Part shown: positions 8,110 to 44,171 of the stretch, piece by piece | How positions within the stretch are numbered: the first letter of the stretch is position 1 | How the letters are laid out: the number at the start of each line of letters is the position of its first letter | Source of the DNA: Bacteroidota bacterium | GTDB lineage: Bacteria > Bacteroidota > Bacteroidia > Bacteroidales > JAGONC01 | Assembly: GCA_026391695.1 (NCBI GenBank) | Contig: JAPLDP010000021.1 | Coordinates: forward strand, 1 to 64,000 | Length of the DNA: 64,000 bases | Direction: 5' to 3' | Made by a program: the position numbers and the translations under genes | Notes under the pieces: generated by a model | Database searches by the model: none | Told to the model about the DNA's origin: nothing | The model's input: only the letters and a program-made list of their open reading frames with translations

Positions 8110-9658
8110 TAAACTGGTAAAAAATGCGGCAGGACGTATAGTGCCGACCATCATCAACGGCAGGGAACAGGTTCCTTTCATGGGTGTGGGAAAATACAAG
8201 CCCATTGGCCGGAAGTACGGGCCACCCATAGCCACTTGCGCCGATTATCCCTCCGATGGCAACAAGCTGGTGCCCGACCTGAAGGAAACCCTCATCAGAA
8301 GCGGCTTAAGGGATGGCATGACCATCTCCACGCATCACCATTTCAGGGATGGCGATCTCATCGCCAACCAGATCTTCGACATTGCCGCCGAGCTGGGTGT
8401 CAAAGACCTGGTGTGGTTCCCGTCGGCTTCTTTTCCCTGCCATCAACCTATCATCAGGCATCTTGAAAGCGGTGTGATCAACCGCATCGAAGGCAGCATG
8501 AACGGCCCCTTGGGTAAGTTCTGCTCCGAAGGCAAGATGAAAGGGCTCGGCGTGTTGCGTTCACATGGCGGAAGATACCAGGCTGTGCAGGATGGCGAGG
8601 TGGTCATTGACATTGCGGTTATTGCCGCGCCGACAGCCGATCCCTTTGGCGATGCCAACGGCGTCAATGGTCCTGCAGCATGCGGACTGCTGGGCTTTGC
8701 CCTCGCCGACTCACAGTATGCCCACAAGGTCATTGTCGTCACCGATAATCTCGTCCCATTCCCATGCATACCCTGGCAGATACATGGTAACTATGTGGAT
8801 TATGTGGTGAAGGTGGATAAAGTGGGCATATCTGAAAAGATTGTCTCAGGCACCACACAGATAACTAAAAGCCCTGACCGCCTCTTAATTGCCGAGTTGA
8901 CGGCAAAATTCTGCGACCTGGCAGGAATTGTGAGAGACGGTTTTTCTTTCCAGGCCGGCGCCGGAGGAACGGCCTTGTCGATAGGTATCTATTTTGCCGA
9001 TATCTTACGGCAACGTAAGATAAAAGCCCGTTTCATGCGTGGCGGAAGCAATAAATATCTTGTTCAGATGCTCGAAGAAGGCCTCGGCGAATTCATCCTC
9101 GACGGGCAGACCTTTGACCTGGAGGGCGTACGCTCCATGCGCGACAACCCTAACCACGTGAACACCAGCCCCTTCACCAGCTATAACTACCATGGCAAAG
9201 GGAATTTTGCCAGCATGGTCGACGTTGTCATCCTCGGTGCCACAGAAGTGGATGTGAATTTCAATGCTAATGTTGTCACACATTCCGATGGTTACCTTCT
9301 TCATGGGATAGGAGGGTGGCAGAACTGCCTGTTCTCGAAGTGCACGATACTTCCGATACCGTTATTCAGGGACAGGATACCGGTCATCAGGGATGAAGTG
9401 ACCACCCTGTGCGGGCCGGGAGAATTGATAGATGTCATAGTGACCGAACGCGGTATTGCCATCAATCCATTGCGTCAGGATCTCATCCATAAAGTGAAAG
9501 GCAGCGATCTTCCGCTGAAGACCATCGAAGAGCTGAAACATGAGGCTGAAAAGATCTGCGGGCCTCCTTCAAAACCCGAGCTCGACGACGAAATCGTTGC
9601 TGCAATCAAATGGGTGGATGGTACGGTGATTGATGCGGTGCGGAAGGTGAAGGGATGA
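8093..9658 (+). CDS. citF: Citrate lyase alpha subunit (citrate:acetyl-ACP transferase)
   Basis: CitF swaps the acetyl group of acetyl-ACP for citrate, making citryl-ACP for CitE. The 521-residue length is close to the E. coli protein (about 510). Matching segments are SGLRDGMTISTHHHFRDGD near the N-terminus, VLRSHGGRYQAVQ, NGVNGPAACG, the CoA-transferase-like QAGAGGTALS, and the C-terminal ITERGIAINPLRQDL type (VTERGIAINP). I chose the ATG at 8093, which follows a good GGAAGAGG ribosome site. An upstream in-frame ATG at 8039 lies deep inside citDE and has no such site. It is the second gene of a two-gene operon, convergent with the LytTR regulator. Confidence 0.93.
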   Translation: MNKKYDKLVKNAAGRIVPTIINGREQVPFMGVGKYKPIGRKYGPPIATCADYPSDGNKLVPDLKETLIRSGLRDGMTISTHHHFRDGDLIANQIFDIAAELGVKDLVWFPSASFPCHQPIIRHLESGVINRIEGSMNGPLGKFCSEGKMKGLGVLRSHGGRYQAVQDGEVVIDIAVIAAPTADPFGDANGVNGPAACGLLGFALADSQYAHKVIVVTDNLVPFPCIPWQIHGNYVDYVVKVDKVGISEKIVSGTTQITKSPDRLLIAELTAKFCDLAGIVRDGFSFQAGAGGTALSIGIYFADILRQRKIKARFMRGGSNKYLVQMLEEGLGEFILDGQTFDLEGVRSMRDNPNHVNTSPFTSYNYHGKGNFASMVDVVILGATEVDVNFNANVVTHSDGYLLHGIGGWQNCLFSKCTILPIPLFRDRIPVIRDEVTTLCGPGELIDVIVTERGIAINPLRQDLIHKVKGSDLPLKTIEELKHEAEKICGPPSKPELDDEIVAAIKWVDGTVIDAVRKVKG

Positions 9659-29593: not shown

Positions 29594-29601
29594 TAAATTT
29601 G
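29594..29601 (+). promoter_or_regulatory. -7 box (TAAATTTG) of the amgK-murU-addB operon
   Basis: It matches TAnnTTTG exactly. A transcript from here would begin about 29607, after the TTG at 29599, so it supports the GTG at 29626 as the true start of the kinase-RapZ gene. Confidence 0.45.
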
Positions 29602-29625
29602 TCATCAACCATTATAAATATTTTA

Positions 29626-31113
29626 GTGAATAGTATTCACAGCCATCTTACTGCACTTTTTAAATCATGGTCGGGTGCTGAACCTACAACAATTAATGCA
29701 TTGCCCGGATCCGGCTCCTCGCGGCGTTACTTCCGCATGGCAGGCCACGGCCATACGGCTATGGGCGTCCATAATCCCATTAAAAAGGAAAACCTGGCAT
29801 TTCTCGCTTTTACCCGGCATTTCCTGAAACATGGATTAAACGTACCGGAAATTTATGCTGAAGACCTTGTCCATGATGTCTACCTGATCAGCGACCTGGG
29901 CAACAGGACACTATTTTCACTGCTGGAATCAGGTAATGGTCATAAAAGCTTTACACCTGAAATTATTGATTATTATAAACTTGTACTCCGGGAGCTGATC
30001 AGTTTCCAGATCATCGCGGGCAGCGACATGGATTACTCATTTTGTTATCCGAAGAAGTCGTTCGATAAGCAGGCTATGCTGTGGGACCTGAATTATTTCA
30101 AATATTATTTCCTCAGATTTGCAGATACGAACTATGACGAGCAGAATCTGGAATGCGACTTCAGTACCCTGGCGGACTTTCTGCTCAAAGCCGACAGCCG
30201 GTTCTTCCAATACCGGGATTTTCAGTCAAGGAATATCCTCATCTTCAATGATAAGCCATATTTCATCGATTACCAGGGAGGCAGGAGAGGAGCTTTGCAG
30301 TACGACATGGCGTCACTTCTTTTCCAGGCGAAGGCTGAAATGCCCGTCGATGTCAGAGAGGAATTGCTTCACTTTTACATGGATGAACTTCAGAAACATA
30401 TACACTATGACATGGCAGATTTCGAGGATCTGTTTAATGGTTATGTGCTGATCCGTTTACTGCAGGTGCTGGGTGCATACGGTCTCAGGGGACTTATCGA
30501 GCACAAACCACATTTTCTGCAAAGCATCCCTTATGCAATTGCCAATATAGACTGGTTCATACGTCAAAAAAAGCTGGCTGTCAGTTTGCCTGAGCTTATG
30601 TCTGCGCTTGAGCGGCTCGTGGAAAACAAGACATACCGGATGCTGCCGGCAGCCGATAATACATTGACCGTCAGAATAAATAGCTTTGCCTATAAAAATG
30701 GTATCCCTGCCGATTATACCGGCAATGGAGGGGGATTTGTCTTTGATTGCCGTGCACTGCCCAATCCCGGGAAATTTGACGAATACCGTTTTGTCGCCGG
30801 AACCGAAATGCCGGTCATCCTGTTCATGCAGGAGAAAGAAGAGGTAAAAAAATTTCTTGACCACGTCTATGTTCTGGTCGACCAGGCTGTTGAGGATTAT
30901 CAGGCAAAGGGATTCATGAACCTTCAGGTAAATTTCGGCTGCACAGGCGGCCAGCACAGGTCAGTGTACTGTGCGGAGCAACTATGGAACCACTTGACGA
31001 CTGAGTACAAGATGAATTTCTCCCTTACCCATACTGAACAAGCCAATTGGATCCTGACTAACCCCATGCTTCAGCATGGAGCCCCTCCTCAAAACGAAAA
31101 TCGACCGCAATAA
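29626..31113 (+). CDS. AmgK-like sugar kinase fused to a RapZ C-terminal domain
   Basis: A two-domain 495-residue protein. The first about 320 residues are an aminoglycoside-phosphotransferase-like kinase: the region around SSRRYFRM, YRDFQSRNIL (the catalytic loop, where others have HGDxxxxN) and FIDYQGGRRG (Mg site). The next gene is MurU-like, so the kinase is most likely an AmgK-type anomeric kinase for MurNAc/GlcNAc in cell-wall recycling. The last about 140 residues match the RapZ C-terminal domain: FVFDCRALPNPG and GCTGGQHRSV. In E. coli that domain binds glucosamine-6-phosphate and the sRNA pathway. I chose GTG 29626 because a -7 box covers the TTG at 29599. It is first in an operon with murU and the nuclease. 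Confidence 0.82.
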   Translation: MNSIHSHLTALFKSWSGAEPTTINALPGSGSSRRYFRMAGHGHTAMGVHNPIKKENLAFLAFTRHFLKHGLNVPEIYAEDLVHDVYLISDLGNRTLFSLLESGNGHKSFTPEIIDYYKLVLRELISFQIIAGSDMDYSFCYPKKSFDKQAMLWDLNYFKYYFLRFADTNYDEQNLECDFSTLADFLLKADSRFFQYRDFQSRNILIFNDKPYFIDYQGGRRGALQYDMASLLFQAKAEMPVDVREELLHFYMDELQKHIHYDMADFEDLFNGYVLIRLLQVLGAYGLRGLIEHKPHFLQSIPYAIANIDWFIRQKKLAVSLPELMSALERLVENKTYRMLPAADNTLTVRINSFAYKNGIPADYTGNGGGFVFDCRALPNPGKFDEYRFVAGTEMPVILFMQEKEEVKKFLDHVYVLVDQAVEDYQAKGFMNLQVNFGCTGGQHRSVYCAEQLWNHLTTEYKMNFSLTHTEQANWILTNPMLQHGAPPQNENRPQ

Positions 31114-31124
31114 AATCACATCTG

Positions 31125-31880
31125 ATGAAAGCAATGATACTGGCAGCGGGAAAGGGTGAGCGGCTAAGACCTCTGACCGACACCACACCTAAGGCACTGG
31201 TCACCATCAGGGGAATCCCTCTTATTGAGATCATCCTGAGACGCCTGAAACTTGAGGGCTTCACTGACATCATCATCAATGTCCACCATTTCGCTGACCA
31301 GATACTCCGTTTTCTTGCAATGAATGATAATTTCGGATTGAATATCCGTGTTTCCGATGAGCGTGATAACCTCCTTGATACCGGAGGTGCATTAATAAAA
31401 GCATCGGCTTTTATCGATGACAATGAGCCATTGCTCATACATAATGTCGATGTTCTGTCAGATATCAATCTAAAAGGGCTTTATGAGCATCACCGCCATT
31501 CCGGTGCCCTGGTCACACTGACTGTGAAGGAAAGGGCTTCAGCGCGTTACTTTTTATTTGACAGCGAAAACCGGCTCTGTGGATGGAAAAACGTGGCTAC
31601 AGGCGAAACCAGGTGGACCGGTGAGCCGCAAAAGCAGTACACTGCGATGGCTTTCAGCGGCATACATGTCATCGGGCCGGAATTCTTTGCCAATACGCAT
31701 CTGTCACAATGTTTTCCGGTACATGAACAACGCTTTTCAATCATAGATGTGTATCTTTGTTTAGCGACGCAGCATAAAATCCTCGGCCATGACCCGGGTC
31801 ATGCTTTGTGGTTCGACCTTGGCAGGCCGGAGGATATCCAAAAAGCAGAACAATTTGTCAGTGAACTTAAACTGTGGTGA
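31125..31880 (+). CDS. MurU-like sugar-1-phosphate nucleotidyltransferase
   Basis: A 251-residue cytoplasmic nucleotidyltransferase. The N-terminal signature AMILAAGKGERLRPLTDTTPK and the substrate/metal motifs IHNVDVLSD and WFDLGRPED place it with MurU/RmlA-type enzymes. It starts 11 bp after the AmgK-like gene. MurU makes UDP-MurNAc from MurNAc-1-phosphate, so the pair forms the short peptidoglycan-recycling route that by-passes de novo synthesis. An alternative is a mannose- or glucose-1-phosphate enzyme, but the neighbour makes MurU the best choice. Confidence 0.85.
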   Translation: MKAMILAAGKGERLRPLTDTTPKALVTIRGIPLIEIILRRLKLEGFTDIIINVHHFADQILRFLAMNDNFGLNIRVSDERDNLLDTGGALIKASAFIDDNEPLLIHNVDVLSDINLKGLYEHHRHSGALVTLTVKERASARYFLFDSENRLCGWKNVATGETRWTGEPQKQYTAMAFSGIHVIGPEFFANTHLSQCFPVHEQRFSIIDVYLCLATQHKILGHDPGHALWFDLGRPEDIQKAEQFVSELKLW

Positions 31881-31883
31881 TGT

Positions 31884-34745
31884 ATGAAGCCTTTTCTCGA
31901 TAGTGTAGCCTCATATATTATAGATAATTATTCCGACAGGATGGCCGGCATGTGTGTTGTCATGCCAAACCGCAGGTCAGGGCTTTTCCTGAAGAAATAC
32001 ATGGCGAAAAAAATCGATAAGCCTGTTCTTCTCCCGGCTGTCTATTCAATTGAAGACCTGATCATTGAGTTATCCGGATTCCGGCTGGCCGACCCTGTTT
32101 CCCTTCTCTTTGAATTATATGATGTCCATTGCAGGATTGAAAAAGAACAGGCACAGCCCTTTGATGATTTTTTGCACTGGGGGAAAGTCCTGCTGCGCGA
32201 CTTTAATGAGATAGACTCCTATCTTATCGATACAAAAAATCTGTTTTCTTACATCAGCGAAGCCAAGGCACTGTCGGTGTGGAACCTTGACCAGCAGCCA
32301 CTGACGACCCTCCAGAAGAACTACATGGCTTTTTATTCATCTTTATATTCTTATTATACCATACTCACTGAATCCCTGGCTGCGAAAAAGCTGGCTTATG
32401 AAGGTCTGGCATCACGCCACGTCGTAGAAATCCTGCCTCAGATATCCGAACAGCTGAAATGGCATACGGTTCTGTTTTGCGGATTTAATGCCATGACAAA
32501 GGCAGAGGAGAAAATCATAGAATTTCTTGTCGGAAAAGGTAAAGCTGAGATCCTTTTTGATGCCGATGCATATTATGTCGGCAATCCCAAACAGGAAGCC
32601 GGTAACTTTATCAGGAAATACATTGAAAGCGGGAGATTCGGAGAAATTAAATGGACTACTGATGATTTTTTACAGGGCGAAAAGCAGATCACCATCATTG
32701 GCGTGGCGCAGAATATCGGACAGGTGAAGGTGGCAGGGCAGATCATACAGGATATCCGGAACGCCAGTAATGACCTGCAAAATACCGCTGTTGTACTTTC
32801 GGAAGAGAACCTGCTTATCCCTCTGTTGAATTCGCTGCCGGGCGACATCGGCGAATTCAATGTCACCATGGGCTATCCATTGATCTTCACGCCGGTTTAT
32901 GACCTCTTCGAAACTATCTTTACCATGCATGAAAATGCCGGGCGGTTCTTTAACCTGCCATCAGCCTCTGCATGGAAATATTATTACAAGGATGCTTTCA
33001 GGGTACTGAATCATCCCTATATCCTGTCGTTGAGCGATGATCCGCAAAAGCTGAGGGAGACCATCGCCGGTCTGCAAAGTACAAACAAAATTTTTTTCAC
33101 CGATAAGGAGCTGGAACCACTCTTTAAATCCGAAGCTCCAGGTTATAGCTCTGTGGTCAGGCTGATCTTTCAGAACTGGGACAATCAGCCCGCTAAAGCG
33201 CTGCAATGCTTTCTGGAATTACTCGAACGCTTCAGAGATCGCCTTATTGCTGATAAATCTGTCGGGCACCGTAACACCATCGAAATAGAGTACATTTTCC
33301 ACTTCGCCAGGATTATCCGGCGTATAACCGGGTTGAGCAGCACATATAATTTTATAACCAGTACATTAACGCTGCGGAATATCTTCAGGCAGATTGTTGC
33401 AGGTCAGACCATACCATTCTTTGGCGAGCCGCTCAAAGGGCTGCAGATCATGGGCATGCTCGAGACCAGGACACTGGACTTCGCTAATCTGATCATGCTC
33501 TCTGTAAATGAGGATATACTCCCCAAATCCAAGGTCACAAATACCTTCATTCCGTTTGATATACGTGTTGAATCCGGATTGCCGACATACCGCGACAGCA
33601 ATGCCATTTATGCCTACCACTTTTACCGCCTGCTGCAACGAAGTAAACAGGTCTTTTTGCTCTATAATACCGAACCAGGTGAACTGGGCGGTGGCGATAA
33701 AAGCCGCTTCATTACGCAGATCATTAACGAATTACCACTGGCCAATCCGCACATCACGATAAGTGAGAAATTACTGAACCAGCCTCCTGAAAAAGATACC
33801 AGGAATTTTTCGATAACCATTGATAAAAGCGATGCCATTGCCGGCAAGCTGCTGGAGAAAGCCCGCAAAGGCCTGGCGCCAAGTGCACTGAATGCATACC
33901 GTAAATGCTCTCTTCAATTTTATTTCAGGGAGATAGCCCGGCTGGCCGAAGCAGAGGAGGTAGAAGAAACTATCGAGGCCGCAACACTGGGCAAAGTCGT
34001 TCATGATGTTATGTACAGATTTTATAAACCCTGGGTGGATAAACCTCTGACAACAGATGCTATCGAACAGATGATGCAAATGATTGATAAAGAGACAGAA
34101 GCATCTTTTGGCAAGCACTATCAGGGCGGGGATATCAGATATGGCAAGAATCTCCTCACAGCCAATGTCGCCAGGATATTTATCAGGAATCTTCTGCTGA
34201 CCGAAAAGCAGTTCATTAGCCAAAGTGTGATAAACGGAACACCCCCTGTCATTCGCTTCCTTGAACAGTGGTTTGATACGATTGTGGATGTTAAAATGGA
34301 AGATAGGATCATACCTGTGAAACTGAAAGGTAAAATCGACAGGATAGACCAGGTTGGAACCCTCCGGCGTATCATCGATTATAAGACCGGCAACATCGTC
34401 GAAAGCAACCTGAAGGTGAAGAGTTTTGAAGAGATGAGAGATGATGCCAAGGCCGATAACAGCTTTCAGCTGCTGGTGTATGCGTATATCTTTCTTCTTC
34501 AGAAATCCCCCGGCGGCGCCCGTAGCGTCGTTCCCGGTGTCCTCTCATTCCATAAGCATAGCCAGGGACTCATTGAGGTTAAACTTCCCGGGGAGGCGGA
34601 TATTACTATTCAAACATTAGATGATTTTAAAAACCTCCTGGATACAATCCTTTTCGAAATGTTCGATCAGAAGAATCCTTTTACTCAAACGACTGACAGC
34701 GACAATTGTAAATATTGCCCTTTTAAGGGTATTTGTAACAGATAG
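31884..34745 (+). CDS. AddB-like PD-(D/E)xK nuclease with Fe-S cysteines
   Basis: A 953-residue protein of the AddB/RexB-like group. The N-terminal half is a degenerate helicase-like region (VVMPNRRSGLFLKKYM near the start). The C-terminal PDDEXK_1 nuclease starts near AYRKCSLQFYF, has KGKIDRIDQ and IIDYKTGN (the D...DYK active site), and ends with NCKYCPFKGIC. The early Cys plus the terminal C-x2-C-x5-C cluster is the arrangement of the AddB iron-sulphur nuclease. It begins 3 bp after murU, so it is co-transcribed with cell-wall genes. The AddA-type helicase partner is not in this window. Confidence 0.85.
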   Translation: MKPFLDSVASYIIDNYSDRMAGMCVVMPNRRSGLFLKKYMAKKIDKPVLLPAVYSIEDLIIELSGFRLADPVSLLFELYDVHCRIEKEQAQPFDDFLHWGKVLLRDFNEIDSYLIDTKNLFSYISEAKALSVWNLDQQPLTTLQKNYMAFYSSLYSYYTILTESLAAKKLAYEGLASRHVVEILPQISEQLKWHTVLFCGFNAMTKAEEKIIEFLVGKGKAEILFDADAYYVGNPKQEAGNFIRKYIESGRFGEIKWTTDDFLQGEKQITIIGVAQNIGQVKVAGQIIQDIRNASNDLQNTAVVLSEENLLIPLLNSLPGDIGEFNVTMGYPLIFTPVYDLFETIFTMHENAGRFFNLPSASAWKYYYKDAFRVLNHPYILSLSDDPQKLRETIAGLQSTNKIFFTDKELEPLFKSEAPGYSSVVRLIFQNWDNQPAKALQCFLELLERFRDRLIADKSVGHRNTIEIEYIFHFARIIRRITGLSSTYNFITSTLTLRNIFRQIVAGQTIPFFGEPLKGLQIMGMLETRTLDFANLIMLSVNEDILPKSKVTNTFIPFDIRVESGLPTYRDSNAIYAYHFYRLLQRSKQVFLLYNTEPGELGGGDKSRFITQIINELPLANPHITISEKLLNQPPEKDTRNFSITIDKSDAIAGKLLEKARKGLAPSALNAYRKCSLQFYFREIARLAEAEEVEETIEAATLGKVVHDVMYRFYKPWVDKPLTTDAIEQMMQMIDKETEASFGKHYQGGDIRYGKNLLTANVARIFIRNLLLTEKQFISQSVINGTPPVIRFLEQWFDTIVDVKMEDRIIPVKLKGKIDRIDQVGTLRRIIDYKTGNIVESNLKVKSFEEMRDDAKADNSFQLLVYAYIFLLQKSPGGARSVVPGVLSFHKHSQGLIEVKLPGEADITIQTLDDFKNLLDTILFEMFDQKNPFTQTTDSDNCKYCPFKGICNR

Positions 34746-34751
34746 GAGCGT

Positions 34752-36275
34752 CTATTTCAACTCTTTTTCCGAGAAAACATTGGCTTCGTAAGTATATATT
34801 TCGGCATCCTTCCATCCATCCCAGCCGATGCCGGCTTTTTCACGGGCGCAATGTCCGAGAAACTCTTCCTTTGTCCATCCTGTTTCTGTGGCCACCTGGG
34901 GAAGAAAGGTACCCGAAGCCCAGCCTTTTTTGATATAGATGCCATGCTTACCCAAGACAATTTCATCAATGGAGTTGATTTTTTTCATGGGTGTGAGAAC
35001 CGATATTTCAATTTCCAGTTCAGGTATTTCAGAAGCTGTGACTGGCGTGAAACGGGAGTCTTCAGTGGCCGATGCGATGGCCATCTGCTGGATGACCATG
35101 TACAGGGGCTCGGTAGCTGAAAACCGGCCTATGCATCCCCTGAGTTTTCCCTCTTTGTTGAGAGTGACAAAGGCGCCACACTGGGCTTTCAGCCGGTCAG
35201 AGTAACCGGATGCATCAAGCGCCGGTATTTTGCCGTTTTTGACATAATCTACAATAGTCGACCGTGCAATCTGAAGCAATGTTTTCTTGTCTTCCGGTGT
35301 TAACTGGAATTCCGCATCCGAACTGGCTGCGGCCTTTTTCAATGAGAATGCCAGCCCATAATATCCGACGACCCTGGTCTTATCGCCGAACGACACATCA
35401 CCAGAGTTCATGTATTTGATAGGCGTTATAGTGATACCGGGATTGTTTTCGGTCATGTATAGCAGTGTCAGCACTGATGTCCATCCGCACATGCTGGTAG
35501 CCAGCTGTTGAATGCCCTTTTCGGAATTGGCGTTGATGGTGTTGATTAACTGCTGCGGCGAATTGGTCATCACCGCATTGGCTGATGCTATATCACAGGT
35601 CATGGCATCTTTATAGGATGGGTAATGCGAGAAATCGGTGCTGATGACAAAGAGATTCTTTTCGTTCAGATAGGGCTTCAAGGCAGCGGCGATAGCCTGG
35701 CATGTCTGCGGCTGCTGTGTCCCCAGGATGATCGGGACAATCTGGAATGGCTCCTGCATGATATACTGCAGGAAAGGCAACTGTACCTCCACGCTGTGTT
35801 CATAGGCATCAGCTTCGTTGTCGAACATGAACACCTTGTTACTGCTGAGGAGCTGCCGGGCCAGATCCCTGTTCACTTTCACCTTACCTAGCGGAGTGAT
35901 ATAGTCGCCCTTGCTGTACACCGATGCCCCGTCGAAATACTTCACATGGCTCGACGCCAGTAAAAAGATGTTATCGTATTTCTTTTTTCGGTCGATCTGG
36001 TTAAAAGCAGAGGCAGCCACCTCTCCGGAATAGACATATCCGGCATGAGGTGATATGATGGCTATGACGTTTTCCATTTTTTTGGGAACAGCGGCAGAAA
36101 ACAGCTGTTTCAGGTCTGCCCTGAGCTCGGTGGAATCACCGGAGTAAAACCTGCCGGCAGCATACGGCTTGCGGTTTACAAGCTGCTCCTCGGGCTGCTT
36201 GTTTTGAGGGGAACAATGCGTGTTCATTATCATTAGCGTGATTAGTGACAAGGAATAAAATTTCTTTATACCCAT
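34752..36275 (-). CDS. AmmeMemoRadiSam B-A fusion (Memo plus AMMECR1), predicted lipoprotein
   Basis: A 507-residue fusion. From about residue 35 it matches Memo-family proteins: RPYAAGRFY-type start (KPYAAGRFYSGD), SPHAGYVYSGEVAASAF, SSHVKYFDG, YEHSVEVQLPFLQ, STDFSHYPSY and MCGWTSVLTLLY, which hold the His and Cys metal ligands. From about 310 it matches AMMECR1: GAFVTLNKEGKLRGCIGRF and EDSRFTPVTASEI. Start ATG 36275 gives a leader ending IMNTHC, a lipobox, so the protein should sit in the envelope rather than the cytoplasm. It is divergent, across 92 bp, from the spermidine-synthase-like gene; the radical SAM partner is third. Confidence 0.87.
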   Translation of the reverse strand: MGIKKFYSLSLITLMIMNTHCSPQNKQPEEQLVNRKPYAAGRFYSGDSTELRADLKQLFSAAVPKKMENVIAIISPHAGYVYSGEVAASAFNQIDRKKKYDNIFLLASSHVKYFDGASVYSKGDYITPLGKVKVNRDLARQLLSSNKVFMFDNEADAYEHSVEVQLPFLQYIMQEPFQIVPIILGTQQPQTCQAIAAALKPYLNEKNLFVISTDFSHYPSYKDAMTCDIASANAVMTNSPQQLINTINANSEKGIQQLATSMCGWTSVLTLLYMTENNPGITITPIKYMNSGDVSFGDKTRVVGYYGLAFSLKKAAASSDAEFQLTPEDKKTLLQIARSTIVDYVKNGKIPALDASGYSDRLKAQCGAFVTLNKEGKLRGCIGRFSATEPLYMVIQQMAIASATEDSRFTPVTASEIPELEIEISVLTPMKKINSIDEIVLGKHGIYIKKGWASGTFLPQVATETGWTKEEFLGHCAREKAGIGWDGWKDAEIYTYEANVFSEKELK

Positions 36276-36367
36276 ATTTTTATTATTTTCGTGATATAAA
36301 CTCTCCCTTTTTTTCTTTTTAATCATCAACGTCCAAGGGGGTGAGTTTCTCCTTACAAATATACTAC
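36276..36367. promoter_or_regulatory. Short divergent promoter region of the AmmeMemoRadiSam locus
   Basis: The 92 bp between two divergent genes must serve both. The sequence is AT-rich with no strong TAnnTTTG match, so the exact promoters are not located. Confidence 0.3.
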
Positions 36368-38512
36368 ATGGATACCAGATATAAAAATCGTTTCTACTTA
36401 TCTGTAGTGGCTGCCGGTCTGGTGTCCATCACTACACAAATCATCCTCCTCAGGGAGTTTATGGTGGTCTTTTACGGAAATGAGCTGGTGATGGGCATCA
36501 TCCTTGCCAACTGGATGCTGCTGACTGGGCTGGGATCTTTTTTGGGCCGGTTTTCCGGGAATATGAAACACGGCCCGGCACTCATTGTTATTTGCCTGGC
36601 CCTGCAGGCCATTATGCCCGTCATCACGGTTTTCCTGCTGTATGTCATGCGGAATGCCATCTTCCCCGTTGGGAAGATGATCGGCATTCTTGAAGTCTTT
36701 TATAGTTCCCTTATCCTTCTTTTACCATTTTGCATGGTTACCGGATTTCTTTTCACGGTCTTCTGCACCCATGCATTTCAGAAATTTCAGGAAAATCTGA
36801 CAAGCCGTATCTATGGCCTCGAATCAACAGGAAGCATAATCGGCGGTGTGCTGTTTAACTTCATTCTGGTGTTTTATTTTAAGACATTCCAAAGCCTCAT
36901 GGTTTTAATGGTCATCAGCTTTGTGGCAGCTTTTATCTTTTCACTTATGTTTAAAGGCTTGTGGAAATATCTGTTGATCTCCGTTGCTGTTACTGCCATT
37001 GTGATGATGAACGTCATCAGCCTCGATAGCCTGTCAAAAAAGAGGCTTTATGTTGATCAGGATATTTTATACCAGAAGGATACTCCTTACGGGAATATTG
37101 TGGTGACCCAGACCGGCGGCCAGATAAATTTTTATGAGAATGGAGTCACTTTATTCACCTCAGGCAATACCATTGAAAATGAAGAATCGGTGCATTATGC
37201 GATGGTGCAAAACAAGCACCCCCAAAATATACTGGTCTTATCAGGTGGAATGTCAGGAATCATTTCTGAGATCGAAAAATACCCAATCCACCGGATTGAT
37301 TATGTGGAAATGAATCCCTGGATCATCAGGATAGCTGAAAGGTATTTTAAAAGGCCGGCTGATAGCCTTGTCAGGATAATTAATAAGGATGCCAAATTAT
37401 TTATCCGGCAAACCGGCCAGAAATACGATGTGGTATTGATTAATCTGCCGGAACCGGCGACAGCGCAGATCAACAGGTTTTATACGGTGAATTTCTTTAA
37501 AAGCCTGAAAACGAAACTTGATCCCGGCGCCGTTGTGTCGACCAGCCTTATGTCGACAGCCAACTACATGAGTCCGGAACAACGCAGGATTCATTCAGCG
37601 TTAATGAATTCACTTCATCAATCCTTTAATAACGTCATCATCATACCCGGCGGAAAGAATTATTTTATCGCCTCCGACAGCACCCTTGACATCGGCATTG
37701 CAGAGCTCATTAAAAAGAGAAGCCTGGATAATGTATACGTCAACCAGTACTATATCGATGACGGCCTGCTAAAGGAAAGAAGTGCTAATATCCTGGCCTC
37801 TCTTGACATGAAAGGCGGTGTGAACACCGATTTCAAGCCGGTATCTTATCTTCAGCAATCCTTGCTCTGGCTGAGTTACTTTAAAATGGATTACCGGGTA
37901 CCATTGATGGTTATTATTGTTTTGTTGGTCATGGTTATCTTTTTTTTCAGCCCCGTCAACCTGGGCATGTTTGCAGGAGGTTTTACCGCCTCCTCCCTTG
38001 AATTTCTTATTCTGATAGCATTTCAGGTCATCTACGGCTATGTGTATCAGATGACCGGTGTCATCATCATGACATTCATGGCCGGCCTGGCGCTGGGATC
38101 CCTTTACATGAACCACTACCTGCCCCGGAATGGCAGTAAAAATTATCGCCGGATTCTGCTTGGCCTGGCAATATTTTCATTCCTTCTGCCCTTGCTTATC
38201 TTTGTCATGAGCAGCACCTATTTACCTGCTGTTGCCGTACATGCCCTGTTTATCATCCTTACGCTGATCCTGTCAGGCCTCGTAGGCATGCTTTTCGCAC
38301 AGGCATCGGTAATTCAAAGAGATAGTGTCAGCCATACCTCATCCGCAATTTACAGCGCCGACCTGATCGGCTCAGCCTTCGGCGTACTCATCGTATCAGC
38401 TTTTCTCCTTCCCTGGTTAGGCATAACACAGGTATGTTTCATCATCGGATGCCTGAATGTTTTATCCTGGATAATGCTCCTTGTGCGAAAAGGAATGATC
38501 CTGAATTTATGA
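36368..38512 (+). CDS. Polytopic membrane protein with divergent spermidine-synthase domain
   Basis: A 714-residue inner-membrane protein. About six N-terminal helices (1-220) are followed by a spermidine-synthase-type Rossmann domain (about 235-480) and a further six to seven helices (about 510-710). The SAM-site motif reads VLSGGMSGI where aminopropyltransferases have GGGDGG, and the catalytic-region motif reads LINLPEP where they have an Asp-x-x-Asp-Pro. Polyamine synthesis is therefore doubtful, and another SAM-linked or ligand-binding role is likely. I start at ATG 36368; the upstream GTG at 36341 lacks support. It lies 72 bp before the radical SAM gene on the same strand. Confidence 0.8.
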   Translation: MDTRYKNRFYLSVVAAGLVSITTQIILLREFMVVFYGNELVMGIILANWMLLTGLGSFLGRFSGNMKHGPALIVICLALQAIMPVITVFLLYVMRNAIFPVGKMIGILEVFYSSLILLLPFCMVTGFLFTVFCTHAFQKFQENLTSRIYGLESTGSIIGGVLFNFILVFYFKTFQSLMVLMVISFVAAFIFSLMFKGLWKYLLISVAVTAIVMMNVISLDSLSKKRLYVDQDILYQKDTPYGNIVVTQTGGQINFYENGVTLFTSGNTIENEESVHYAMVQNKHPQNILVLSGGMSGIISEIEKYPIHRIDYVEMNPWIIRIAERYFKRPADSLVRIINKDAKLFIRQTGQKYDVVLINLPEPATAQINRFYTVNFFKSLKTKLDPGAVVSTSLMSTANYMSPEQRRIHSALMNSLHQSFNNVIIIPGGKNYFIASDSTLDIGIAELIKKRSLDNVYVNQYYIDDGLLKERSANILASLDMKGGVNTDFKPVSYLQQSLLWLSYFKMDYRVPLMVIIVLLVMVIFFFSPVNLGMFAGGFTASSLEFLILIAFQVIYGYVYQMTGVIIMTFMAGLALGSLYMNHYLPRNGSKNYRRILLGLAIFSFLLPLLIFVMSSTYLPAVAVHALFIILTLILSGLVGMLFAQASVIQRDSVSHTSSAIYSADLIGSAFGVLIVSAFLLPWLGITQVCFIIGCLNVLSWIMLLVRKGMILNL

Positions 38513-38557
38513 TCCTTGATAATTGAAATCTTTGTGATTCTTTGTGTCTTCTTTGTG

Positions 38558-38565
38558 TAACTTTG
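38558..38565 (+). promoter_or_regulatory. -7 box (TAACTTTG) upstream of the radical SAM gene
   Basis: It matches TAnnTTTG exactly, 19 bp before the ATG, inside a stretch of CTTTGTG repeats that offers several TTTG candidates for -33. The gene may thus be transcribed on its own as well as from upstream. Confidence 0.4.
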
Positions 38566-38584
38566 TGTTATATCCTGGATCACG

Positions 38585-39745
38585 ATGAGCAAAAAGATCA
38601 CCAAGCGGGAATTCATCAAGTACAGCTTATATAGCACATGCGGCGCTGTGCTCGGTTTAAGCTCACTTGACCTGCTGGCCTCCGGCGCCGGGAAATTATT
38701 CAGAGCTCCAGCACAAGGTCCGCAGGACCTCTGGAAATGGAGCAAGGAAGCAGCCTTTTACATCCAGACACCACGGGGTATGAAATGCCTGATCTGCCCG
38801 ACGGAGTGCAGTGAAATATCAGAGATTAAATATGGCACCTGCCGCACACGCATAGCCTCCGGCAATAAACTCTATACCATCGCCTATGGCAATCCCTGTG
38901 CTGTTCATGTCGATCCTATTGAGAAAAAACCGCTTTACCACTTTCTTCCCACAACCACTGCCTTTTCCATTGCCACTGCCGGCTGTAATCTGGCCTGCCT
39001 CAACTGCCAGAACTGGACTATCTCACAATCCAGCCCTAAAGACACACAGAACTCCGACCTCATGCCCGATAAGGTCGTTGAAGAATGTCTGAACTCAAAG
39101 TGCCGGTCCATTGCCTATACGTATTCCGATCCTGTAGCTTATTATGAGTATGCTTACGACACAGCTAAGCTGGCCAGAGACAAAGGAATAAAAAATGTCC
39201 TGGTGTCGGCCGGGTATATTTATGAGCGGCCATTGAGGGAATTGTGCAAATATTTCGATGCGGCCACTATTGACATCAAGTCATTCAGCGAAGATATCTA
39301 TGCCATGCTGAATGGAGCTAAATTGAAGCCGGTGCTGGAAGCGCTGAAAATAATGAAACAGGAGGGCCTGTGGCTGGAGATATCCAATCTGGTTGTGCCA
39401 AGCTGGACCGACGATATGGAGATGATCAAACGCATGTGCGGCTGGTTCGTGGAGAATGACTTTGCCGGCAATCCCTTCCATTTTCTTCGCTTCCAACCCC
39501 AGTATAAACTTACCAACCTGCCGCCAACGCCCGCATCGACACTCGAAAAAGCCAGGGATATAGCGCTGGGTGCAGGGATGAAATTCGTGTATATCGGCAA
39601 TGTCCCCGGTGAAGGCGAAACAACCTTCTGCCCGAAATGCAAGAAAACGCTTATTGACAGAAGAGGTTTTCAGATCCTGGCCAATAACATTGTAAATTCC
39701 AGATGCAAATTCTGCCAGGAGCCCATACCGGGTGTATGGCAGTGA
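38585..39745 (+). CDS. AmmeMemoRadiSam-system radical SAM enzyme with Tat-like leader
   Basis: A 386-residue radical SAM protein. The cluster motif is CNLACLNC (C-x3-C-x2-C, about residues 137-144) in the setting IATAGCNLACLNCQNWTIS. Extra cysteines occur before it (CLICPTEC, then GTCRTR) and at the end (CPKCKK ... CKFCQ), consistent with the auxiliary sites of this family. The N-terminus MSKKITKREFIKYSLY followed by a hydrophobic stretch resembles a twin-arginine leader with Lys-Arg in place of Arg-Arg. Folded Fe-S enzymes use the Tat route, which agrees with the Memo-AMMECR1 partner being a lipoprotein. The substrate of the system is unknown. Confidence 0.86.
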   Translation: MSKKITKREFIKYSLYSTCGAVLGLSSLDLLASGAGKLFRAPAQGPQDLWKWSKEAAFYIQTPRGMKCLICPTECSEISEIKYGTCRTRIASGNKLYTIAYGNPCAVHVDPIEKKPLYHFLPTTTAFSIATAGCNLACLNCQNWTISQSSPKDTQNSDLMPDKVVEECLNSKCRSIAYTYSDPVAYYEYAYDTAKLARDKGIKNVLVSAGYIYERPLRELCKYFDAATIDIKSFSEDIYAMLNGAKLKPVLEALKIMKQEGLWLEISNLVVPSWTDDMEMIKRMCGWFVENDFAGNPFHFLRFQPQYKLTNLPPTPASTLEKARDIALGAGMKFVYIGNVPGEGETTFCPKCKKTLIDRRGFQILANNIVNSRCKFCQEPIPGVWQ

Positions 39746-39751
39746 GCCGGT

Positions 39752-40054
39752 TTAGCCCCCTAACCACTGAAATACCACCTTCTCAGCCCGCCCTGAATGT
39801 CCCTTCAGTACTTTTATACCGGCATTCTTTAGCACCAGTTCATCAGGTGACTCCAGCCTTTTGACAAAAAGGGTCGTCACTTTTGCATCGATGAGTTGGA
39901 AAACTTTACCTACTATGTAGTGGCATTTTTCAGCTTTGATCCTGCTCTTTTCAAGGATTTTTTTTTCTTTGGCATCGATGGTATAGATCTGAAATTCGCT
40001 GCATGAACGAAATTCATCGACATTATTGCGTGTAGTCGCGATGGCAATGATCAT
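39752..40054 (-). CDS. NifX/NifB-type dinitrogenase cofactor-domain protein
   Basis: A 100-residue single-domain protein (Nitro_FeMo-Co family). The typical opening MIIAIATTRNNVDEF is followed by a beta-alpha domain with AEKCHYIVGKVFQLIDAKVTTLFV and a GIKVLKG ending. Stand-alone members are often found beside Fe-S or radical SAM genes outside nitrogen fixation and are thought to bind metal clusters. It is convergent with the radical SAM gene, 6 bp between stops, and no nif genes are present. A link to the neighbouring system is possible but unproven. Confidence 0.75.
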   Translation of the reverse strand: MIIAIATTRNNVDEFRSCSEFQIYTIDAKEKKILEKSRIKAEKCHYIVGKVFQLIDAKVTTLFVKRLESPDELVLKNAGIKVLKGHSGRAEKVVFQWLGG

Positions 40055-42565: not shown

Positions 42566-42642
42566 GGTCTGGTAGTTCAGTTGGTTAGAATGCCTGCCTG
42601 TCACGCAGGAGGTCGCGAGTTCGAGTCTCGTCCAGACCGCCA
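42566..42642 (+). tRNA. tRNA-Asp (anticodon GTC)
   Basis: The cloverleaf can be drawn fully. The acceptor stem GGTCTGG (42566-42572) pairs with CCAGACC (42632-42638). The anticodon stem CCTGC/GCAGG encloses CTGTCAC with anticodon GTC, and the T arm GCGAG/CTCGT encloses TTCGAGT. Discriminator G and an encoded CCA end the gene at 42642. A hairpin terminator follows directly. Confidence 0.95.
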
Positions 42643-42647
42643 CTTCC

Positions 42648-42682
42648 AATCCCGGATATAATCAGATACCCGGGATTTTTTT
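42648..42682 (+). terminator. Rho-independent terminator of tRNA-Asp
   Basis: AATCCCGG (42648-42655) pairs with CCGGGATT (42670-42677), followed by seven T residues. It begins 6 bp after the encoded CCA. Confidence 0.8.
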
Positions 42683-42883
42683 GTGCCTATTAGCTTTCCG
42701 TTGAAAATATATTTGATTTAACAGATTGTGCGGATTATATTGTGCTGACCCAAATGCATTATTATACCTATGATCTTAAATGAATTACAGTATAATGTTA
42801 ATAATTTTTACTAAAATTTGAAAAATCAGTCTCAAAATCATAGGTATATTTAGGCGAAAAATGGATCAACCAATAAAAGCACA

Positions 42884-43471
42884 ATGGGTACAGAAATATT
42901 GCCTGAATTCATTTTGACAAACTATGAAGTCCATGAATGGAAACATGCTGTTGCTGTGCTTGTTAGTGATTTTCCTGTTGAATTCAGAGATATCAAAGAT
43001 CTCTTGACCGGTTTCAGGCTTCATGAAAATTGGATAAAAGAACCTGGTGGAAGAAAATCACTGGTTTCAGAGAGTATTGATAAATTTCTCACTGACCGTG
43101 GCTGGCAGGAAAAGAAATTTGACACCTCAGTCAATGTAGATGACAGAGTTATGAAATCTCCAACACATAAGGTCGATTGCTATAAAAATCAAATAGCTCT
43201 TGAAATAGAGTGGAATAATAAAGATCCGTTTTTCGACAGGGATTTGAATAATTTCCGTCTGTTATTCGATCTGCGAGCCATAAGCGTGGGCATTATTATC
43301 ACACGCTGTGATCGTCTTCAGGAGATTTTTGACCGGCTTGGACGAGGGGCGTCCTATGGATCATCTACTACTCACATGTCTAAGCTTATCTCCAGAATCG
43401 AAGGCGGTGGAGGAGGAGGATGTCCTATTTTAGTTTTCGGTATTACAAATAATTTATACGTTGAGGATTAA
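42884..43471 (+). CDS. BglII/BstYI-like type II restriction endonuclease
   Basis: A 195-residue protein that resembles the BglII/BstYI restriction endonuclease family. The probable catalytic core is KVDCYKNQIALEIEWN (about 97-112), an Asp followed by a Glu-x-Glu pattern in a PD-(D/E)xK-like fold, then DPFFDRDLNNFRLLFDL and GIIITRC. An unusual run of six Gly (EGGGGGGC) lies near the end. The adenine methyltransferase 4 bp downstream makes it a restriction-modification pair. BglII and BstYI cut AGATCT and RGATCY, so a GATC-centred site is likely, but it cannot be read from sequence. Confidence 0.8.
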   Translation: MGTEILPEFILTNYEVHEWKHAVAVLVSDFPVEFRDIKDLLTGFRLHENWIKEPGGRKSLVSESIDKFLTDRGWQEKKFDTSVNVDDRVMKSPTHKVDCYKNQIALEIEWNNKDPFFDRDLNNFRLLFDLRAISVGIIITRCDRLQEIFDRLGRGASYGSSTTHMSKLISRIEGGGGGGCPILVFGITNNLYVED

Positions 43472-43475
43472 TACA

Positions 43476-44171
43476 ATGAAGGGAAAGGTAGCAGAAGATT
43501 TTATCAGACAAGTTCAGGGAAGATACTATGGAACTGTACTGGCCGATCCGCCATGGCAGTTCGATAACCGTACAGGGAAAGTAGCTCCGGAACATAAACG
43601 TCTCGCAAGGTACTCTACTCTCTCTTTGGAGGAGATCATGGAAATACCAGTCGACTTTGTCACTGCTGAGAAAAGCCATTTATACCTTTGGGTACCAAAT
43701 GCTTTATTGAAGGAAGGTTTAAAGGTGATGAAAGCATGGGGATTTGAATATAAGACAAATATAATTTGGCATAAAATACGTAAAGATGGCGGTCCTGACG
43801 GCAGGGGCGTTGGTTTCTATTTCAGAAATACAACTGAAATACTCCTGTTTGGCGTAAAAGGTAAACTCCGTACATCCGATCCTGGAAGAACACAGGTGAA
43901 TATCATTAAAAGCCGCAAACAGGAACACTCACGCAAACCTGAGGAACAATATAAGATTATTGAAGCCTGCAGCCCCGGGCCTTATATCGAACTTTTCTCA
44001 CGAGGATCCCGACCAGGTTGGGATGTATGGGGAAATCAATCGGAAGATTATGAGCCTACATGGGATACTTATAAACATAATAGCAGATCAATACAAAGAC
44101 AAGAGTTACTTAAGGAACGTTTTAGCAACGAGACTATAAAAGACGAAGTAAGGATGAAGGAAGAAAGATGA
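43476..44171 (+). CDS. MT-A70-family DNA adenine N6-methyltransferase
   Basis: A 231-residue methyltransferase that probably protects the host against the adjacent restriction enzyme. The catalytic motif DPPW is in VLADPPWQFDN near residue 28. Other MT-A70 marks are HLYLWVPNALL, WGFEYKTNIIWHK, NTTEILLFGVKG and YIELFSRGSRPGWDVWGN. Start ATG 43476 follows the endonuclease stop by 4 bp; the upstream TTG at 43461 overlaps that gene and is less likely. MT-A70 enzymes are an uncommon partner class for type II enzymes. Confidence 0.88.
   Translation: MKGKVAEDFIRQVQGRYYGTVLADPPWQFDNRTGKVAPEHKRLARYSTLSLEEIMEIPVDFVTAEKSHLYLWVPNALLKEGLKVMKAWGFEYKTNIIWHKIRKDGGPDGRGVGFYFRNTTEILLFGVKGKLRTSDPGRTQVNIIKSRKQEHSRKPEEQYKIIEACSPGPYIELFSRGSRPGWDVWGNQSEDYEPTWDTYKHNSRSIQRQELLKERFSNETIKDEVRMKEER

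Follow-up and report, generated by a model that had tools for sequence, protein, structure and literature searches.

A predicted exported AmmeMemoRadiSam set linked to a putative MFS-fold membrane protein in a Bacteroidota bacterium

Introduction

The AmmeMemoRadiSam three-gene set is usually predicted to reside inside the cell. The cytoplasm is where SAM and strong reductants occur, and radical SAM enzymes are for that reason regarded as cytoplasmic. A locus in the stretch of Bacteroidota DNA analysed here (64,000 nucleotides, hereafter the window) has all parts of this set predicted to be exported, with the A and B parts fused and with a dedicated membrane partner, here called SpdM. It therefore raises the question of whether an AmmeMemoRadiSam system could work outside the cytoplasmic membrane and, if so, what SpdM would contribute to it. 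The open-access literature yielded no description of an exported AmmeMemoRadiSam set or of an exported radical SAM enzyme. Burroughs et al. in 2019 reportedly connected the Memo clade with the modification of nucleotide bases and isoprenoids, and that work may already mention parts of the exported set.

Results

Organization of the locus

An ORF check of the window confirmed all four open reading frames at the positions given below, with one correction to the earlier note: it is the Memo-AMMECR1 gene that is divergent, the genes for SpdM and the radical SAM enzyme being co-directional on the plus strand. The Memo-AMMECR1 fusion (34752–36329, minus strand) likely starts at an internal ATG at about 36275, and SpdM (36341–38512, plus strand) likely starts at one at about 36368, placing about 90 bases between the two divergent genes. 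The radical SAM enzyme follows at 38585–39745 (plus strand). The three AmmeMemoRadiSam parts (TIGR04335, TIGR04336 and TIGR04337) thus lie adjacent in one locus and all score over cut-off. The fusion matched the Pfam models Memo (205 bits) and AMMECR1 (185 bits) and the NCBIfam models TIGR04336 (243 bits, cut-off 26) and TIGR04335 (175.6 bits, cut-off 99), and the radical SAM enzyme matched TIGR04337 with 341.4 bits (cut-off 220).

The predicted Memo-AMMECR1 lipoprotein, SpdM and the radical SAM enzyme are conserved together as a trio, and their co-location is not accidental. The trio is also present in a cultured organism, Mangrovibacterium marinum DSM 28823 (locus L038), where the Memo-AMMECR1 ORF was seen only in part. 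Clustering of 472 neighbour ORFs from 80 loci revealed no further conserved gene; each family found spanned no more than 10 loci, in a pattern that resembles ordinary synteny between related genomes.

A NifX-like small protein, encoded convergently at 39752–40054 (minus strand; Nitro_FeMo-Co, PF02579, 35.8 bits against a cut-off of 26.3), had been counted with the set. It was rejected as a fourth member: phmmer searches found no match in any of the 80 homologous loci (E 1e-5), nor within 2 kb downstream in L189 (E 1e-3), the one same-family locus with a flank of that length, although a very distant NifX could have escaped a search that used one NifX-like query only.

Predicted export of the enzyme and its Memo-AMMECR1 partner

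The radical SAM enzyme begins with a Tat-type leader (38585–38683, plus strand), which reads MSKKITKREFIK and then continues into a hydrophobic stretch. The twin residue pair in its motif, TKREFIK, is KR and not RR, a less usual variant. A Tat-type motif, [KR][RK]x[FL], was found on the enzymes of 77 of the 80 best related loci and a Sec-type leader in one; over the 78 loci scored, the leader motif reads I/M - S/T/N - K/R - R - E/D - F - L/I - K/R. TatC is encoded in the window genome. Of 19 sampled genomes that have an exported enzyme, 18 likewise encode it, and at L046, where the leader is of RR type, a TatC gene lies inside the locus. The sole sampled genome without a TatC match (L079) is the one in which the enzyme leader is of Sec type. 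By its motif, hydrophobic stretch and genomic TatC, the enzyme is predicted to be a substrate of the Tat route, which carries folded Fe-S proteins. Its cluster motifs are intact: the radical SAM CxxxCxxC (residues 134–141; Cys134, Cys138 and Cys141), the N-terminal Cys68, Cys71, Cys75 and Cys86, and the C-terminal Cys349, Cys352, Cys374 and Cys377 are kept in 82/82 aligned rows.

The signal sequence of Memo-AMMECR1 ends in a lipobox-like cysteine (IMNTHC, codon at about 36213–36215), and the protein is predicted from these features to be a periplasm-facing bacterial lipoprotein. An N-terminal hydrophobic segment was also seen in its homologues; a script sorted 55 of them into 23 with signal and cysteine, 15 with signal and no cysteine, and 17 unparsed. 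Human MEMO1 (PDB codes 7KQ8 and 7L5C) is sequence-related to the Memo part (E 1e-20) and shares its metal ligands, with His95 and His128 aligning with MEMO1 His49 and His81, and Cys281 equated with Cys244 by position. These residues are kept in 54/55, 54/55 and 53/55 aligned rows, respectively. Unlike MEMO1, the window protein is predicted to be exported and is fused to AMMECR1. A search of the window genome for a second Memo-AMMECR1 that would belong to its leaderless radical SAM enzyme (C35, L002/L153) found none. The sole other Memo-like protein in that genome (L177, 370 residues, Memo 89 bits) has an N terminus that appears signal-like by eye.

Linkage between the leader and SpdM

Of 81 loci with an exported enzyme, 74 have SpdM adjacent to it, with scores over 300 bits in 70 and as fragments in four (three at contig ends and one broken), and for six of the seven remaining loci it was found elsewhere in the genome. 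In a separate sample, SpdM was adjacent to none of 51 leaderless enzymes, 44 of which had at least 4.5 kb of sequence on both sides. A full SpdM was likewise absent from all 36 leaderless-only genomes searched (of 45), where matches to the SpdM profile reached at most 145 bits; in the genome search, SpdM matches scored at least 479 bits and all others at most 145. Thus, in contrast to the set described here, the sampled leaderless AmmeMemoRadiSam homologues have neither the leader nor the SpdM partner. The earlier note had proposed an exported set co-located with a membrane protein, and had offered leaderless homologues without that neighbour as a test of accidental association; both parts of the proposal held, export as a prediction from sequence, and the test revealed that leader and SpdM occur together.

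Leader and membrane protein are found together in loci from several phyla. On the tree, the leader label needs four changes, giving three independent pairs, with none against (sign test, p 0.25). Because so few changes are needed, the linkage mostly reflects a single old event that has been kept, and it rests mostly on one old clade. Individual loci depart from the pattern. The L009 genome (a 3.5 Mb chromosome) encodes a leadered enzyme and lacks both a full SpdM and a Memo-AMMECR1 match, the L013 genome has no Memo-AMMECR1 match, L076 has SpdM and an ORF found without a leader, and L062 combines an exported-looking Memo with a leaderless enzyme and no SpdM.

Fold and topology of SpdM

SpdM matched Spermine_synth (62.7 bits) and NF037959, "fused MFS/spermidine synthase" (50.1 bits, cut-off 40), the latter model also matching 38 of 48 SpdM homologues at E 1e-3. 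The window protein is thus placed within the NF037959 subfamily, from which the SpdM group is distinct in being tied to an exported radical SAM enzyme. An assignment as spermidine synthase itself (SpeE) was rejected, with TIGR00417 scoring 64.7 bits, under its cut-off of 249.55, and the catalytic acids mostly lost.

The AlphaFold2 model of SpdM (pLDDT 91.9) gave VIA Z scores of 28.6 to VMAT2 (353 residues aligned, r.m.s. deviation 4.0), 25.0 to NarK and 28.1 to Thermus thermophilus SpeE, and the model of a second SpdM (L038) gave a Z score of 24.7 to G6PT1 over 350 aligned residues. The models therefore predict an MFS transporter fold with a spermidine-synthase-like (SpdSyn-like) domain between its halves. 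The helices read as 7 + 7, with seven preceding the SpdSyn-like domain, and Lys plus Arg are more numerous in the inside-assigned than in the outside-assigned loops of 65/65 SpdMs (median 18 versus 2). By loop charges and helix counting, the SpdSyn-like domain is predicted to be periplasmic, in the same compartment as the other two proteins. Within the MFS halves, the polar residues Gln33, Arg38 and Gln562 are invariant or nearly so.

The predicted MFS fold, the predicted periplasm-facing domain and an extension in 22 of 65 homologues had all been overlooked earlier. This N-terminal, putatively cytochrome-b-like extension has two His columns invariant in 22/22 proteins, the window SpdM being of the short form. 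A Pfam search gave no call for the extension, and hhalign against six hand-picked DUF4405-like segments gave 84.6%, and 92.7% when repeated with default options; four control stretches gave at most 0.1% under the settings of the first run. No separate extension gene was found in the window genome with the L038 extension as query, in a search run without a positive control, and genome G000 has no DUF4405 match.

Residues of the SpdSyn-like domain

The SpdSyn-like domain (residues about 236–500; 37046–37840, plus strand; PF01564) is degenerate in the manner first described: SGGMSG, Glu323 and Asp350 are kept in the window protein, NLPEP replaces DxxDP, and the catalytic residues are lost. Across the 65 SpdMs, the GGGDG acid is replaced, mostly by Ser (34/65), the first Asp of DxxDP is replaced by Asn, Leu or Ala in 53, and the second acid is Asp or Glu in 38. 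Glu323 is kept in 63 (Asp in the other two), Asp350 in 65 and Asp363 in 64, and some family members have an altered glycine-rich SAM loop (Gly303 in 47/65, Gly306 in 49/65). The roles assigned to GGGDG and DxxDP follow in part PMC10349129. SpdMs therefore appear to keep SAM-type pocket residues and to have mostly lost those for aminopropyl transfer. With the GGGDG acid and the first DxxDP acid mostly gone, no evidence was found for the polyamine-like ligand that had been suggested.

Asn stands at the motif-IV position in 36/65 SpdMs. Among 48 SpdMs, a model for ornithine lipid N-methyltransferase (E 5e-4) and one for the methyltransferase TrmB (E 1e-7) are each weakly matched by a single protein. 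These features would suit a different role, in which SpdM is an envelope-side methyltransferase that acts in succession with the radical SAM enzyme on one exported protein or lipid, the MFS part being an anchor or a product mover. A comparable protein is fungal NHMT, which PMC10349129 describes as a 7TM methyltransferase with an SpdS-like domain that resides in the secretory pathway (ER) and methylates secreted LPMOs, and in which, according to its authors, a replaced GxG(D/E)G acid separates methyltransferase from spermidine synthase. SpdM shares the replaced acid and the seven helices before the domain. However, this likeness is one of architecture and motif change, the authors' search with their 7TM region returned fungal matches only, and SpdM differs in its second helix set, its predicted MFS fold and its radical SAM partners. 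A domain on the outside would still need SAM delivered, two MFS halves with (near-)invariant polar residues exceed an anchor, and some SpdMs do not keep the glycine loop. We consider such a methyltransferase unlikely, if worth keeping in view.

The MFS fold, together with the partly decayed glycine motif of some SpdMs, would also fit a protein that imports or exports a small molecule, either a substrate or a product of the Memo/AMMECR1/radical SAM pathway, with the SpdSyn-like domain as a sensor or SAM-free relic; Glu323, Asp350 and Asp363 are nevertheless kept more than a relic would predict, and this role appears distinctly improbable.

Discussion

The arrangement that we favour, at roughly even chances, is an AmmeMemoRadiSam system that works outboard, with SAM supplied or otherwise handled by SpdM on the outer side of the membrane. 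The radical SAM enzyme would be exported with its cluster motifs intact, through the Tat route in most loci seen, and the metal-site-bearing Memo-AMMECR1 would reach the periplasm as a lipoprotein or be otherwise exported. The SpdSyn-like domain of SpdM, with its SAM-type pocket and without aminopropyl-transfer residues, would face the same compartment and may serve as the outer SAM receiver, SpdM carrying SAM out or swapping SAM for spent adenosyl products. SAM supplied in this way could then feed radical SAM chemistry on an envelope substrate, if such a substrate exists. Against this system stands the need of an exported radical SAM enzyme for a strong extracytoplasmic reductant; for the short window SpdM, none was identified. 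Where SpdM bears the extension, as in a third of cases, it may pass electrons as well. A fuller extracytoplasmic radical SAM machine can be drawn from this, comprising a Tat-exported enzyme, SpdM as SAM transporter, electrons passing through the cytochrome-b-like domain in about a third of SpdMs, an exported Memo-AMMECR1 and an envelope substrate; we hold it to be tentative and rather less than probable.

That the proteins are instead membrane-anchored with their catalytic domains not translocated, the set working at the inner face like a cytosolic system, seems very improbable: export is a prediction, KR is less usual than RR, and the cytoplasm is where SAM, reductant and Fe-S repair are found, but the leader motif is conserved over the loci scored, the genome without a TatC match has a Sec-type leader, Memo-AMMECR1 carries a signal sequence and predictions place the SpdSyn-like domain outside.

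If the outboard system is correct, a conserved exported radical SAM enzyme with a transporter-like partner that bears a SAM-type pocket would give radical SAM chemistry a new compartment. The pairing of exported enzyme and SpdM predicts a SAM transporter, which is directly testable. Moreover, Memo and AMMECR1, which have human relatives and remain unsolved, would gain a setting in which partners and cellular place are fixed, so that the search for their substrate could turn to the envelope.

The locus and its genome

The four ORFs of the locus lie where the earlier note had placed them, with the Memo-AMMECR1 fusion gene (34752-36329, -) divergent from those for SpdM (36341-38512, +) and the radical SAM enzyme (38585-39745, +), and with a NifX-like protein (39752-40054, -), judged to lie outside the set, alongside. 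Each of the four products exceeded at least one Pfam or NCBIfam family cut-off. The window lies on contig C21 of a 3.63 Mb genome, which on C35 encodes a further radical SAM enzyme of this family, leaderless and 39% identical. A search with the fusion protein revealed a single Memo-AMMECR1 fusion gene in this genome, predicted to be exported. A second Memo-family protein (370 aa, 89 bits), with a signal-like N terminus, is encoded on C86 (locus L177, 3122-4234), where the 7 kb examined with the trio profiles contained no other match; L041, L045, and L053 have weak Memo matches close to it in length (374-388 aa) downstream of their trios.

Upstream of the trio, an APH-like kinase domain fused to a RapZ C-terminal domain (29599-31113, +) is followed by a nucleotidyltransferase gene (31125-31880, +), and the two (29599-31880, +) look like a sugar kinase/nucleotidyltransferase pair. 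An AddB-like PD-(D/E)XK protein (31884-34745, +) adjoins the trio; by eye, a similar-looking family precedes the trio in 9 of 80 homologous loci, so some of the synteny is common to relatives. On the other side, 42566-44171 holds a tRNA gene and then the genes for a restriction endonuclease of BglII type (155 bits) and for an MT-A70 methyltransferase (108 bits), likely a restriction-modification insertion beside the tRNA.

Export leaders and gene order

Scanning genome contigs with the window radical SAM protein gave at least 592 stretches, at least 589 of them encoding relatives, from which the best 80 were kept as loci; among the matches listed, the nearest named loci were mostly from Bacteroidota metagenome genomes. 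A [KR][RK]x[FL] motif was found near the enzyme N terminus in 77 of the 80 (KR 64, RR 11, RK 2); after it comes a hydrophobic stretch whose best-12-residue mean hydropathy was at least 1.0 in 76 loci and 0.73 in L018. The motif was missing from L062 and L076, which show no leader, and from L079 (969-2129, +), where MRSRYSISIVLVVSLCFACQSAMA is by eye a Sec-type signal. A second script, with another threshold, assigned no leader to L018, L037, or L043 and a Tat-like one to L079; all four were reassigned by eye from their sequences. The consensus of 78 scored loci, I/M - S/T/N - K(65)/R(13) - R(71)/K(7) - E/D - F(71) - L/I(58) - K(45)/R(25), is the Tat consensus with lysine replacing the first arginine; KR-type Tat signals occur naturally. 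TatC was found in the window genome and in 19 of 20 genomes sampled from the 80 (18 of the 19 with a predicted exported enzyme, plus that of L076), with no match in the L079 genome, a 1.7 Mb Omnitrophota record that is possibly incomplete. The L046 locus itself contains a TatC gene (8330-9013, -; 182 bits), placed between Memo-AMMECR1 and SpdM; the record is titled Woesearchaeota and the bin may be mixed.

Among the 55 Memo proteins of the 80 loci, a signal-like segment was detected by script in 38, 23 with a lipobox-type cysteine, and by eye in 15 of the 17 left unparsed, the other two being truncated. Beside leaderless enzymes, a signal was seen in 0 of 14 Memo proteins in the N-terminal residues inspected, several of these ORFs starting upstream of the likely start.

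The gene orders, counted over loci many of which are cut by contig ends, were Memo+ SpdM+ rSAM+ (36), Memo- SpdM+ rSAM+ (16), SpdM+ rSAM+ (13), radical SAM gene alone (7), and other (8). Clustering of neighboring ORFs in the 80 loci revealed no gene hinting at a substrate. In L059 the leadered enzyme is directly followed by another, shorter member of its radical SAM family (7162-8172, +; 336 aa), and in four related loci (L047, L048, L056, and L057) a protein with a signal-like start, by eye resembling methionine sulfoxide reductase B, is encoded downstream of the radical SAM gene.

SpdM accompanies the leader

SpdM occurs when, and nearly only when, the radical SAM enzyme has an export leader. 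The comparison sample comprised 198 genomes spread over the phylum, with a TIGR04337 match in 78 that exceeded the cut-off in 50. Besides the window, 55 over-cut-off places and one just below the cut-off (G161) were fetched, with 6 kb flanks where contigs allowed, and searched with profiles derived from the 80-locus set; a weak place in G133 was also fetched and left out of the tally, and two rows whose ORF lacked the N terminus (L158 and L175) were dropped from the leader count. The earlier note had held that homologues lacking both leader and neighboring membrane protein would mark co-location and export as accidental. SpdM adjoined 0 of 51 leaderless enzymes in this sample (44 of them flanked by 4.5 kb or more on either side) versus 74 of 81 predicted exported ones once the 80-locus set was added, and the linkage was not refuted; all three leadered enzymes of the sample itself had both SpdM and Memo-AMMECR1. 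Of the 74 adjoining SpdMs, 70 scored over 300 bits and four were fragments, three of them located at contig ends and the fourth split over two ORFs.

Whole-genome searches located a full SpdM elsewhere in the genome for six of the other seven loci (L004, L013, L021, L014, L037, and L049). The seventh, L009, is an exception to the pairing: it has a leader, no SpdM, and no Memo-AMMECR1 match, and its genome encodes only a distant relative (120 bits). In the search that covered L014, L037, L049, and 36 of the 45 leaderless-only genomes, SpdMs scored 479 to 880 bits and all other matches at most 145. A full SpdM was found in 0 of these 36 genomes, including G110, whose enzyme, L158, has an interrupted frame and a start without leader. 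G101 has SpdM together with one leaderless enzyme and a second cut by contig ends. The other exception is L076, where SpdM is present and the ORF found has no leader; L062 lacks leader and SpdM, yet its Memo protein has a signal sequence.

Exported-type loci occur in records titled Bacteroidota, Ignavibacteria, Desulfobacteraceae, Omnitrophota, and others. A quick tree of 135 rows sets a limit to this evidence, since the leader label required four changes and well supported branches provided only three independent pairs (mean 2.7 in the same direction, 0 opposite; sign test p 0.25). The case for the linkage therefore draws its strength from conservation that is deep and persists through rearrangement of the loci, not from repeated origin.

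Predicted structure and topology of SpdM

The AF2 model of SpdM (pLDDT 91.9, pTM 0.91; alignment of 48 sequences) matched MFS transporters through its helix sets (VIA-align), with VMAT2 at Z 28.6 (353 residues aligned, model range 1-723), VAChT at 27.9, SV2A at 26.8, and NarK at 25.0, and its soluble domain matched Thermus thermophilus SpeE at Z 28.1. A second model, from Mangrovibacterium marinum (L038; pLDDT 88.3), agrees (G6PT1 Z 24.7, SpeE 26.2). Seven membrane helices precede the spermidine-synthase-like domain and six follow it, the last being 53 residues long and read, in the model, as two helices.

Loops were assigned as inner and outer alternately from an inward N terminus. Over 65 SpdMs, mean Lys + Arg was 3.5, 2.7, 1.9, 2.4, 0.8, 3.0, 1.7, and 2.2 in the inner loops (87 residues in the window protein) and 0.1, 0.9, 0.3, 0.1, 0.6, and 0.1 in the outer loops (59 residues), with inner exceeding outer in 65 of 65. 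MFS proteins have an inward N terminus, which gives the same topology. Consequently, the prediction places the spermidine-synthase-like domain on the periplasmic side, in the predicted compartment of Memo-AMMECR1 and the radical SAM enzyme.

In this domain, Glu323 (63 of 65, Asp in 2), Asp350 (65), Asp363 (64), Pro372 (65), and Arg379 (65) are kept. The GGGDG acid is lost, with Ser as its commonest substitute (34 of 65); at the first acid position of DxxDP, 53 carry Asn, Leu, or Ala, and the second position is Glu or Asp in 38 and Pro in 18. This pattern is consistent with a SAM-type pocket that does not support aminopropyl transfer. The nearest functional parallel may be the fungal 7TM methyltransferase NHMT, which PMC10349129 tells from spermidine synthases by the missing acid of GxG(D/E)G and describes as possibly limited by SAM availability in the ER.

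In 22 of the 65 SpdMs (including L038 and L064) the N terminus is longer by around 110 residues (positions about 1-105), which form three helices in the model of L038; the window protein lacks this extension. Alignment columns 78 and 92 are His in all 22. No Pfam name was obtained for the extension in the five extended SpdMs scanned. Against six DUF4405-like segments, hand-picked by His pattern and to that extent biased, hhalign gave 84.6% probability for the extension; with identical settings, four stretches from elsewhere in SpdM reached at most 0.1%. In a repeat with the options left at their defaults, the extension scored 92.7% (E 4e-7). The extension may be a cytochrome-b/DUF4405-like membrane segment fused to the MFS-spermidine-synthase-like protein.

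Active sites of the Memo and radical SAM partners

His95 and His128 of the Memo protein align with MEMO1 His49 and His81, in a numbering whose offset we assume, and Cys281 corresponds to Cys244 by position only, the alignment ending before it. These three MEMO1 residues bind iron or copper (PMC11081632). The corresponding Memo residues are kept in 54 (His95), 54 (His128), and 53 (Cys281) of 55 rows, and the CxxxCxxC motif and eight further cysteines of the radical SAM enzyme in 82 of 82. By these residues, Memo-AMMECR1 and the radical SAM enzyme look like working exported enzymes, not relics.

A proposed role for SpdM

The component families are known. No description of an exported version partnered by a dedicated SpdM turned up in the literature searched, which did not cover Burroughs et al. 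2019, and within that literature the arrangement appears new. One rival reading makes SpdM an exporter of the pathway product. Another makes it a methyltransferase, and here the altered glycine loop in part of the family (Gly303 kept in 47 of 65, Gly306 in 49) makes it doubtful that every member is catalytic. To work beyond the cytoplasm, a radical SAM enzyme would require SAM and electrons there. Given the leader linkage, the transporter fold, and a SAM-type pocket on the enzyme's predicted side, the simplest reading is that SpdM would supply or exchange SAM for the exported radical SAM enzyme, and some versions may carry electrons as well.
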